64,000 bases of DNA from Natronomonas gomsonensis (lineage in GTDB: Archaea > Halobacteriota > Halobacteria > Halobacteriales > Haloarculaceae), in assembly GCF_024300825.1 (NCBI RefSeq), contig NZ_CP101323.1, forward strand, positions 682,001-746,000. The letters are read 5' to 3'. This document shows, piece by piece, positions 47,441 through 50,570 of the stretch. Position 1 is the first letter of the stretch; every line of letters starts with the position of its first letter. The notes under the pieces are model-generated. The model made no database searches. It was given only the letters and a program-made list of their open reading frames with translations, and had not been told where the DNA came from. The position numbers and the translations under genes are program-made.

Positions 47441-47650
47441 ATGACCGACTACACGACGGTTTCGATTCCGAAGGACCTCGCAGAGCGCATCGAGGAGACC
47501 ATCGAGGGAACCAGCTTTTCGTCGACGAGCGACCTCGTTCGGTTTCTGCTCCGGAGTATCGTCATCCAGCACCAACAGCGCGGCGAACTCACCGAGGCTG
47601 AGTTCGAAGAGATAACCGACCAGCTACAGGACCTCGGTTACCTGGAGTAG
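47441..47650 (+). CDS. Ribbon-helix-helix (CopG-like) DNA-binding protein
   Basis: A 69-residue protein whose first 45 residues form a ribbon-helix-helix fold: strand TTVSIPKDLAERIEETIEG, then SSTSDLVRFLLRSIVIQHQQ. The C-terminal part (LTEAEFEEITDQLQDLGYLE) is an extra helix pair. Such proteins act as dimeric repressors, sometimes as antitoxins, but no toxin gene is next to it. It overlaps the convergent gene by 13 bases. Confidence 0.8.
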   Translation: MTDYTTVSIPKDLAERIEETIEGTSFSSTSDLVRFLLRSIVIQHQQRGELTEAEFEEITDQLQDLGYLE

Positions 47651-48051
47651 TCCTCGAGTTCTCCGGGCGGCGGGGCGGCATCGACGACCTCGAGACCGTA
47701 TTCGTCGCCGGAGCGGTCGAAGGCGGCGACGCAGTCCTCCTCGTACGGCGGCACCGCGACGAAGACGACTTCGTGTAGGTCGTCGGCTTTCGTCAGCGCC
47801 AACACGCCGTCCGGATGTGAGATGAACCGCCCGGCCGTGCCGGGCGTCGAGAGGTCCATCCCGAAGACTGCGGTGACAGACCCGCCGGTGTCGGGGAGGT
47901 ACATGTCGGTGAACACCGACGCCTCGGACGGAAGTCCGGCATCGAGTTCCGACGCCGGTGTCACCGCTAAGGCGACGGTCACCGACGAGGGGTCGCGGTC
48001 CGTCGCCAACTCCAACAGCGCGGTCAGCAGTCCCTGCGTGATGTAGACCAC
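47638..48051 (-). CDS. Haloarchaeal protein of unknown function
   Basis: A 137-residue protein starting at a GTG (MVYITQGLLTALLELATD). The fold looks alpha/beta, with SSVTVALAVTPASELD and DLHEVVFVAVPPYEEDCVAAFDR. It has one conserved-looking cysteine and a Pro/Asp-rich C terminus. No family comes to mind. It converges on the ribbon-helix-helix gene. Confidence 0.6.
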   Translation of the reverse strand: MVYITQGLLTALLELATDRDPSSVTVALAVTPASELDAGLPSEASVFTDMYLPDTGGSVTAVFGMDLSTPGTAGRFISHPDGVLALTKADDLHEVVFVAVPPYEEDCVAAFDRSGDEYGLEVVDAAPPPGELEDYSR

Positions 48052-48252
48052 GGGTGGAGTACGACGAACAGCGGTAAATGTCCGTCGGACGGTTGAATTT
48101 TCACGTTCTGAGACGGCCCGTCGGTAGAACTAACAGCTCATTAGCCGTATCGTGGGGGAAGTTAACACGTAATTATAAATAACCCGTGCGGGCGAGCGCT
48201 GAGACGGCAGACGGATGGCATACGTTAATTTTATCTTTAAATTGACAAAAAC

Positions 48253-48260
48253 TTTATATA
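48253..48260 (+). promoter_or_regulatory. Strong TATA box of the 49-residue peptide gene
   Basis: TTTATATA inside a long AT-rich stretch (48211-48262), preceded by GACAAAAAC as a BRE-like element. It lies about 30 bases before the ATG at 48286, the spacing of a leaderless transcript. The 234 bases between 48052 and 48285 hold nothing else that I can identify. Confidence 0.65.
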
Positions 48261-48285
48261 TATGGCGCTCATCGGGTGAACTGTA

Positions 48286-48435
48286 ATGTCCGCAAGCACC
48301 ACCCCCGAGTCGGAGTCGAGTTCGATCAAGGCGTTCCTCGCAGAGCACCCCCGAATGGCCGGCGTCCTGTTCACCGCCCTGCTGCTGCTGAGCCAAGCTG
48401 GAATGGTCGCTGGTGGCGGGTACGCTGGACCGTAG
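48286..48435 (+). CDS. 49-residue hydrophobic peptide with Gly-rich end (DUF7503-like)
   Basis: Reads MSASTTPESESSSIKAFLAE, then HPRMAGVLFTALLLLSQAG and a C terminus MVAGGGYAGP. A polar Ser/Glu-rich head is followed by one hydrophobic helix and a Gly-rich tail. The pattern IKAFLxExPR ... LLLLxQAG ... GGGxYxGP matches small haloarchaeal proteins that I recall as DUF7503. The gene has one of the strongest promoters of the window and ends eight bases before the stop of the CHAT protease on the other strand. It could be a membrane-active peptide or a protease substrate; both are inference. Confidence 0.7.
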   Translation: MSASTTPESESSSIKAFLAEHPRMAGVLFTALLLLSQAGMVAGGGYAGP

Positions 48436-48443
48436 AGACCCAG

Positions 48444-50570
48444 TTACAACAAGTCGCTCAACGAGAGCGTGTCAGACCAGCCGAACGTTCCATCGAACAG
48501 TACCGGGAGTACAGCCAACGAGAGGTATTCTTCGAGCACCTGCTCGGATACGTTGAACGTCGGTAACGTTCCGGGACACAGATAGACCTCTTTGATGCCC
48601 TGAATCGGCGGGCGGTATTGCGTTCCCATACCGAATCCGCTCGTGGCGTACGTCGTGAGCGTAACGTCGTACTCATCCGACTCCGCGTCAACTCTCGCAA
48701 GAACTGGCACGTTGCCCTGATGTTGGGCGATATCGGCGTTCCCATCGCCGATAACCAGATACTGGGTCCCGACGATGCTCCGTTCGCGCGCGATGTTCAG
48801 CGCCGACCGCAGCGGGAACCCGTAGTTGAGCAGTTTTGCCAGCGTCTTTCCGATTCGGACAGCACCGCTGTTTATCACGTCATCGAGCGTCACGACGCCC
48901 GAAATCGCACCTTTTTCGATGAGTCGCCGGCCCTGCCGATAGGAGCGACAGGCATTTAAAAAGAAGATGTCGAGGTTGATGTCGCCGACGGAATCGACAT
49001 CGAGCAGGCCGTCGGAGCACTCGAATCCCCCCTCGTCGACGTGGCCGATGTAGTGAAAGAAGTCCACGTCGGATTCGAGGACGAGCGCGAGGCGGTCGGT
49101 GGTCAAATCCTCGTAGAACGTCACGTCGATGGGGAACTCCTCGCGAGAGCCGTACACCTCCGCGGCGACGTCGCGTTCCTCCAGCATCTCCTCGTCGTTG
49201 CAGACGACGACGATTTCGATATCGCCCTCACGGGGGTCTCGGTCCAGTCGGTTCCGGAACGCTTCCGGGATGGCCTTGCTGGCTCCGAGCGGCGTCCCCT
49301 CTCCAACCCAGGTCTGTTCGAGGGAATCCGCCTGGTCGGGTTGGACGTGTTGGGTCGGGGTCGCCGGGGACTCGGATGGAGAGCGAGTCGTCGAGCGGAC
49401 GAACTCGCCGTCGTCGGGTGTCGACGCCTCGAAGGGGCCGTCGTTTTCGACGAACGGGTCGTCGTTCTCCACTGAGAGCTGTGACGGAGAGCGAACGACC
49501 GCGAGGTCGTCGACGAGGAACGGCAGCACCTCGAGGCTCGACCCGACTGGGTCGACGTGGGCAGTGAGTTTCCACGTCGGGACGAACGACGAAATCGAAT
49601 CGTAATCGACGGTGTTGTACGCCGCAAGGCGCTCGGCGCCGGACCGTCCGTACAAGTCGCTCAGGTCGACATCGAGCGACGACGCGACGGCGCGGCGCTC
49701 GTACAGCGGGACTGACCGGGGACCTGCCGTCCGAACCACGCAGTCCAGAAAAAAGGTCCGCTTGAGCGTCCGCTCGACGGTCCGCTCGAAGCCCCCATCT
49801 CCTTCCAGGGAGAACGGTTCTCCGTCGACGACGAGTTGCGGTTCGGACCCCGGGACGACCTCGGCACCGAGATAGTACGCCAGCGGTGCGACGGCCAGCG
49901 GCTCGAACAGCGACTCCGGGACTTCGATGTGAACGTCCGTCTCGGGGGGCTGTAGGCCGTCGGGGACGGACAGCGACGACCCCCGCTGGAGCGCGGGCGG
50001 GTGCCCGCGGAGCGTCGGATACGACCGCTCGCTCGCGGTCGTCTTCATCGCACTGCCGAACGTCGACACCGCGGCCATCACGTCCGTCGGGTCGTCGGTC
50101 GTGGTGACAGTCGCCGCCGGTTGTTCGTGATACGAGCGCGCACCGATTCGGACAGAAGCGGCCTCCGAGAGTGTAACATCCATCTCGGAGACGGTCGTCT
50201 GAACGTCTATCGCGCCTTCGAGTTCGACGTAGAGTTTCACCGGACCCGACAGTTCGAGGGTGTAGTGGCCGTCGTCGAACGACACCGATTCGAAGTACTC
50301 CACCTCGGTAACGTCCGTGCCGTCGTGGACGAAGGTTCGCGAAAACCCTTCGAACGTAAGTCGCCCAGCCGTGAGTTCGACAGCCGTGTCGACGGGGTAG
50401 TTGAACTGACTGTCGTCGGCGGGCGTCGGGTCGGACGGACGGTCCGTCCGAATCTCACAGTGGCGCCGTTGGATACGGTCGTCGATGCGAATCCCGCACT
50501 CGCCGTCGAGGGAGCGTACCGATACACGGTTGATGTGTTTGCCCTCCTCTCCGCTCGTGCCGGAACCCAT
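48444..50570 (-). CDS. CHAT-domain (caspase-like) cysteine protease
   Basis: A 708-residue protein. The C-terminal 280 residues form a CHAT domain with the His of VDFFHYIGH (H510 by this start) and the Cys of IFFLNACRSYRQG (C541) as the catalytic dyad. The first 360 residues are beta-rich and unlike known domains (AVELTAGRLTFEGFSRTFVHD, SVSFDDGHYTLELSG); a low-complexity linker (about 365-420) joins them. I chose the ATG at 50570 because a TATA-like GGCTTTTGC lies 31 bases upstream; TTG at 50600 and GTG at 50594 are alternatives. CHAT proteins in bacteria act as executioner or substrate-specific proteases; the target here is unknown. Confidence 0.82.
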   Translation of the reverse strand: MGSGTSGEEGKHINRVSVRSLDGECGIRIDDRIQRRHCEIRTDRPSDPTPADDSQFNYPVDTAVELTAGRLTFEGFSRTFVHDGTDVTEVEYFESVSFDDGHYTLELSGPVKLYVELEGAIDVQTTVSEMDVTLSEAASVRIGARSYHEQPAATVTTTDDPTDVMAAVSTFGSAMKTTASERSYPTLRGHPPALQRGSSLSVPDGLQPPETDVHIEVPESLFEPLAVAPLAYYLGAEVVPGSEPQLVVDGEPFSLEGDGGFERTVERTLKRTFFLDCVVRTAGPRSVPLYERRAVASSLDVDLSDLYGRSGAERLAAYNTVDYDSISSFVPTWKLTAHVDPVGSSLEVLPFLVDDLAVVRSPSQLSVENDDPFVENDGPFEASTPDDGEFVRSTTRSPSESPATPTQHVQPDQADSLEQTWVGEGTPLGASKAIPEAFRNRLDRDPREGDIEIVVVCNDEEMLEERDVAAEVYGSREEFPIDVTFYEDLTTDRLALVLESDVDFFHYIGHVDEGGFECSDGLLDVDSVGDINLDIFFLNACRSYRQGRRLIEKGAISGVVTLDDVINSGAVRIGKTLAKLLNYGFPLRSALNIARERSIVGTQYLVIGDGNADIAQHQGNVPVLARVDAESDEYDVTLTTYATSGFGMGTQYRPPIQGIKEVYLCPGTLPTFNVSEQVLEEYLSLAVLPVLFDGTFGWSDTLSLSDLL

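Follow-up and report, generated by a model that had tools for sequence, protein, structure and literature searches.

A caspase-like CHAT protein and a GP-ended peptide as a candidate two-part control module in haloarchaea

Is a 49-residue hydrophobic peptide, encoded tail-to-tail with a caspase-like protein in Natronomonas gomsonensis, the partner of that protein, and which part of the peptide would matter to it? Both genes lie in the window, by which we mean the whole stretch of 64,000 nucleotides analysed here (contig NZ_CP101323.1, positions 682,001 to 746,000; Table 1). The initial annotation had described a peptide with a polar head, one hydrophobic helix and a GGG-Y-GP tail, all of which can be read in the open reading frame (MSASTTPESESSSIKAFLAEHPRMAGVLFTALLLLSQAGMVAGGGYAGP): the polar N-terminal head is followed by an [HN]P[RK] motif (HPR), the single helix and the tail GGGYAGP. 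The peptide is a member of the Pfam family DUF7503 (PF24335; 64.7 bits at a curated cut-off of 27, E 5.5e-18), an entry to which no function is assigned. Pairing with CHAT proteins, the GP tail and tandem tails are not described in the literature searched, and our searches on DUF7503 and on CHAT domains in haloarchaea found no paper. The AT-rich promoter noticed earlier is present, with the TATA-like TTTATATATA ~29 nt upstream of the ATG, and a leaderless start of the gene is plausible from this sequence. The same trough occurs in 191 relatives, in which GC content is 0.23-0.31 at -60 to -30 against a locus mean of 0.63; the AT-rich promoter is a trait of the whole peptide family.

Table 1. 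Positions of the features within the window
Feature	Position	Strand	Evidence
137-aa gene (P0003 family), divergent from the peptide gene	47638-48051	-	beside the peptide in 19-20/80 named loci
AT-rich promoter region, TATA-like TTTATATATA at about 48252-48262	48220-48262	+	sequence; AT-rich trough in 191 relatives
DUF7503 peptide gene, 49 aa	48286-48435	+	ORF sequence, profile match, family conservation
Tail codons, last six residues GGYAGP, proposed docking motif	48415-48432	+	GP conservation, CHAT covariation, Haloplanus tandem copies
Spacer between convergent stop codons, 8 bp	48436-48443		sequence; median gap of relatives 4 bp
CHAT-domain protein, 708 aa from ATG	48444-50570	-	ORF; AlphaFold2 model, pLDDT 92.3; fold matches
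CHAT 650-655 codons, proposed groove for tail -4 to -6	48606-48623	-	covariation t-6/P655, t-4/Q651, t-5/T650
Catalytic Cys541 codon (LNAC)	48948-48950	-	kept in relatives
Catalytic His510 codon (YIGH)	49041-49043	-	kept in relatives
Thr186-Leu187 codons, proposed tail pocket	50010-50015	-	top covariation with terminal G and P
Arg145 codon, proposed contact of tail C-terminus	50136-50138	-	198/198 GP pairs, 19/25 non-GP pairs

A convergent gene pair in the Halobacteria

The 708-residue protein on the opposite strand, with its YIGH and LNAC motifs and its end 8 bp past the peptide stop, was verified as first described. It is a homologue of the CHAT/clan-CD cysteine proteases with an intact His510/Cys541 dyad and putative protease activity; its closest named relative, at 90%, is from N. 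gomsonensis. No Pfam or NCBIfam profile matches the window protein at E<=1; among 26 relatives, 11 match Pfam CHAT (PF12770, best 2.5e-5) and five match Peptidase_C25. H510 and C541 are conserved in 99% of the paired relatives and are invariant in 12 other aligned sequences. An AlphaFold2 model built with a 107-sequence alignment matches gingipain R (RgpB; Z 20.5 over 239 residues, 333-652), SAVED-CHAT (Z 19.6 over 170 residues, mainly the CHAT part), separases (Z about 16) and the TPR-CHAT protein of Craspase (Z 14.4 over 205 residues), and a sequence search for solved homologues gave none that is close. The large N-terminal part had been called unlike any recognised domain; in the model it comprises a beta-sandwich at about 16-146, then a region with no clear structural match, and Foldseek returned nothing for this part at E<=1e-3. 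We rejected a glycosidase-like assignment, as the best match, to a glycosidase beta-sandwich (VIA Z 9.2), was taken as a generic fold.

Of 391 Halobacteria genomes, 334 contain DUF7503 above the cut-off; the 14 control genomes yielded it in Haloferax volcanii alone. Given that 170 of 176 good matches in the retrieved loci (139 distinct peptides, some loci being counted twice) are convergent with a CHAT gene, at a median stop-to-stop distance of 4 bp, this arrangement is kept far beyond chance. A search seeded with CHAT found a profile-matching peptide in the convergent place at 69 of 80 loci in named genomes. Two of the loci without a profile match encode divergent peptides that keep the GP ending (L214, L231), two others encode tandem-tail open reading frames (L240, L227), and at L224 the peptide lies 1.4 kb from the CHAT gene on the same strand. 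Altogether, 225 distinct full peptide-CHAT pairs were collected, 72% of them within 30 bp of each other. Consistent pairing, which in the initial annotation would support the proposal, is what the neighbourhoods display, and peptide homologues lying usually far from CHAT genes were looked for across the loci and not found.

Absence follows the same pattern. In 20 genomes without DUF7503, CHAT relatives are absent or distant only, and the sampled peptide-less genomes do not carry this CHAT clade. Four solo CHATs are basal in the CHAT tree, including the second copy of the window genome; other unpaired cases are scattered. That second copy (L183, G000:C1:487669-489342) is a distant paralogue of 33% identity without a peptide partner, and its solo type also occurs in other haloarchaea. 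Class-wide convergent pairing, co-absence and the covariation between tail and CHAT protein described below strongly support the two genes as functional partners.

Several single cases accompany this distribution. Two Halococcus CHAT genes (L253, L257) are close to paired ones and have no peptide at the 3' end, an apparent recent loss. In a genome in which DUF7503 was not recognised, a divergent helix peptide ending in GGGAGYYGP is encoded upstream of a CHAT gene (L186:3666-3851, minus strand). Of 25 CHAT matches in plasmid records, 22 carry only the annotation 'hypothetical protein', and the module has thus been overlooked. A search of IMG/VR for viral relatives confirmed none.

The tail as the indispensable part of the peptide

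Across the 139 distinct peptides, the head contains [YF]L and then [HN]P[RK], in which the proline (P14) is present in 100% and R/K (position 15) in 98%. The helix of ~20 residues follows the pattern G-V-L-F-T-x-L-L-L-L-S-Q-A-G-x-[VA]-A-A, so that the residues just before the tail are [VA] at -3 (94%) and A/G at -1 (98%). The tail itself is variable; 117 of the 139 relatives end in GP. Because this ending is encoded by all four glycine and all four proline codons, its constraint lies at the protein level. A DNA- or RNA-level cause, arising from the nearby CHAT stop, was rejected on the same ground, and also since the tandem units described next vary almost only synonymously and the CHAT codons that covary are a long way from the 3' ends. 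Two peptides of one genome (G163; L182 and L188) carry a long insertion between helix and C-terminus, and one of them keeps a PGP end.

The genus Haloplanus provides a natural experiment that separates the role of the helix from that of the tail. In seven sequences, from six searched genomes and one metagenome bin, the convergent open reading frame has a head like MSxxDSGTVA and no hydrophobic stretch, and ends in an 11-residue tail (ADGNSGGISGP and variants) that is present 2-13 times, with 2-residue spacers in between. The accompanying CHAT proteins keep HYIGH and LNAC, and the dyad is intact in the six that were checked. Two other Haloplanus genomes encode helix-type peptides with homologous head and tail, next to CHAT proteins 80-81% identical to those of the tandem type. 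Pairwise comparison of the repeat units gave 687 synonymous codon differences as against 6 non-synonymous ones; the 13 units of H. ruber are all distinct as DNA, yet each encodes the same 11 residues. Purifying selection therefore acts on every copy of the tail, whereas the peptide can do without its hydrophobic helix: of the two, it is the tail that has to be kept.

These versions bear on the proposal of the initial annotation that the peptide may be substrate, effector or inhibitor of the protease. The partnership itself stands, and a regulatory docking tail fits it best. An effector or toxin acting through its helix is disfavoured because Haloplanus dropped the helix while it kept and multiplied the tail, and we rejected this as the main role; cleavage at the conserved basic site (P-[RK]) is weakened by the same versions, one of which (L275) has no Arg or Lys at all. 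A gasdermin-like scheme, in which CHAT cuts the peptide, possibly behind the invariant P-[RK], and frees a membrane-active helix, is improbable. In its favour, the nearest folds are gingipain and separase, both of which are Arg/Lys-specific, P14 and R/K15 are nearly invariant, and an acidic residue at a possible S1 position, D459, is mostly conserved. Against it, the Haloplanus versions lack both the helix and a conserved basic site, and no position of the tail consistently holds a P1 residue of the kinds usual in clan CD. The CHAT or caspase-like proteases encoded beside bacterial gasdermins likewise adjoin a gene for a small membrane protein; DUF7503, for its part, is a single ~20-residue helix (49 aa here) with no gasdermin domain.

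The residues before the tail might also be read as a signal-peptidase-like [VA]xA site, at which the helix, as a signal peptide, would be cut to release a secreted GP-ended peptide; the tandem forms would then be multi-copy precursors like that of yeast alpha-factor. While the near-constant -3 and -1 residues and the identical tandem units under strong purifying selection agree with such a signal, the tandem forms have no hydrophobic export signal and the tail covaries with a CHAT protein which itself has no evident export signal, and we judge secretion slightly less probable still than the gasdermin-like scheme. Least credible, and very improbable, is a toxin-antitoxin pair, in which the 3' end of a small hydrophobic toxin gene would face a convergent antitoxin or antisense transcript. 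A peptide of ~45 aa with a single helix, convergent genes a few bp apart and a patchy, multi-copy distribution are what such a pair would look like, but all seven Haloplanus versions keep the pair though the helix is lost, and conservation is at the protein level while synonymous change is free.

Covariation between tail and CHAT protein

We scored covariation (APC-corrected) in the 225 distinct pairs, numbering tail positions from the C-terminus, and compared it with a simulated null that lets every peptide column evolve on its own along the CHAT tree. Tail positions occupy 16 of the 20 strongest peptide-CHAT pairs, as compared to 2.9 expected under this null, and 47 of the top 100. The highest APC-corrected scores belong to t-6/P655 (Z 10.8) and t-4/Q651 (Z 7.3); against the null, the leading pairs join t-2 to T186, K112 and R145, t-1 to L187, t-4 to V287, Q651 and Y184, and t-6 to P655, and t-5/T650 also covaries. 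The maxima fall in T186/L187 and T650/Q651/P655, and the covarying set as a whole comprises K112, R145, Y184-L187, V287 and 650-662. R145 is kept in all 198 pairs that end in GP and is lost in 6 of the 25 that do not.

Control columns indicate that the null is somewhat anti-conservative, with several non-tail columns passing as well; their maxima are at most 5.9 and scattered, as against 10.4, 8.1, 7.4 and 6.9 for four tail columns in the same run. In a branch-coincidence test over 11 changes in GP status, the two highest ranks among 175 columns go to L187 and T186, in this order, with p values (0.002 and 0.003) that are not significant after correction, and mirror-tree correlations of 0.2-0.35 are uninformative for linked genes. 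We did not rely on a strong covariation of helix residue F21 with 540/558/561 beside Cys541, as it stems from one five-sequence group only. Taken together, the covariation is good but not conclusive evidence that the tail docks on the CHAT protein.

The best reading of these sequence patterns is a tail that is not a cleaved toxin but might dock on, and regulate, a cytosolic CHAT protease, normally being presented by a membrane helix. The GP-ended tail would bind a groove lined by K112, R145, Y184-L187, V287 and 650-662; the helix would anchor the peptide in the membrane and probably self-associate, so that many tails are displayed together; and recruitment would switch the CHAT protein's activity as a cysteine protease, the simplest means being clustering of the kind known from initiator caspases. 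The soluble Haloplanus arrays, with their tails in tandem, would take the place of this clustering at the membrane; among models that accommodate the change from helix to repeats, multivalent display is the simplest. For the module as a whole, with the tail as a short linear ligand, tails displayed together and the protease switched, we consider the chances evenly balanced. Membrane topology is ambiguous, given that the head of helix-type peptides has a net charge near zero; an N-in orientation, following the positive-inside rule, would put the tail outside the cell.

The same docking and covariation evidence also applies to an inhibitor, and this is the alternative that we take most seriously, albeit as an unlikely one. 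Here the tail would be a competitive inhibitor or pseudosubstrate, comparable to securin, and an abundant peptide would keep the protease inactive as long as the peptide is neither degraded nor titrated away. The AT-rich promoter suggests an abundant peptide, separase is among the fold relatives, and tandem copies would make a stronger sponge. On the other hand, the Halococcus CHAT genes persist without a peptide, the residues that covary are concentrated in the N-terminal half and at 650-662, not at the dyad, and the coupling of F21 to residues beside Cys541 is confined to one lineage. The peptide partner points to a concrete, testable ligand site on an archaeal caspase-like protein.

Known CHAT systems and neighbouring genes

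The arrangement is reminiscent of the type III-E CRISPR Craspase, in which TPR-CHAT (Csx29) likewise has a dedicated non-enzymatic partner, Csx30. In contrast, the window protein has no N-terminal TPR helices, its ~145 N-terminal residues being beta-strands in the model, and its partner, a convergently encoded peptide of ~45 aa, seems to be recognised by the C-terminal tail. CRISPR genes do not recur beside DUF7503-CHAT loci, and a genetic link to Cas7-11 and Csx30 is not seen, no CRISPR family being among the matches listed for 107 flanking proteins. The SAVED-CHAT (PCaspase) of a protease cascade has the CHAT fold in common, but a SAVED domain was not recognised in the window protein. Separase, with its partner securin, and the gingipains share the pseudo-caspase plus caspase arrangement of clan CD, while their N- and C-terminal parts differ and the partner here is a short peptide tail. 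A peptide-gated archaeal caspase module, helix-borne or with a soluble array of up to 13 tails, would have no described counterpart; we hold this reading to be somewhat less likely than not.

The data suggest an undescribed two-part control module in salt-loving archaea, in which a CHAT protein would recognise a GP-ended peptide tail. With some hesitation, we extend this to a class-wide signalling module that could be a candidate source of the caspase-like activity of Haloferax. H. volcanii has a strong, stress-linked activity of this kind to which no gene is assigned, and archaea are said to lack clear caspase homologues (PMC3615174). The CHAT clade and its peptide are found in many Haloferax species, and H. 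volcanii carries DUF7503; attributing the activity to this clade is only a hypothesis. Against it, the H. volcanii activity favours substrates with Asp, while enzymes specific for Arg/Lys are among the folds nearest to the window protein.

A cell-death or defence role, also raised at the outset, is neither supported nor excluded. PADLOC profiles gave no match to the window CHAT protein and one stray match (Cmr3, 6.6e-5) among its 26 relatives, and, in the matches listed for the 107 flanking proteins, no defence family occurs in more than one protein; a link to defence islands was rejected on this basis. The recurrent neighbours are of another kind. Next to the peptide, 29 of 80 loci have a response regulator, often HalX, and in about 30 of the 80 named loci the gene directly upstream of CHAT, on the CHAT strand, encodes DUF7504 (PF24336; for example L250:4195-4902 and L225:4092-4790). 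Together with HalOD1, they point to regulation through stress or sensory signals. One DUF7504 protein (L270:3765-4874) is fused to HalOD1; of the 12 DUF7504 genes in the window genome, not one adjoins the window CHAT. The P0003 family, divergent from the peptide gene (Table 1), is a recurrent, not universal, neighbour; it has no match in Pfam, and its SHPxG...DD stretch is suggestive of a degenerate JAMM/MPN domain. Near the locus, the window also encodes a small regulator of the ribbon-helix-helix (CopG) type (47441-47650, plus strand).
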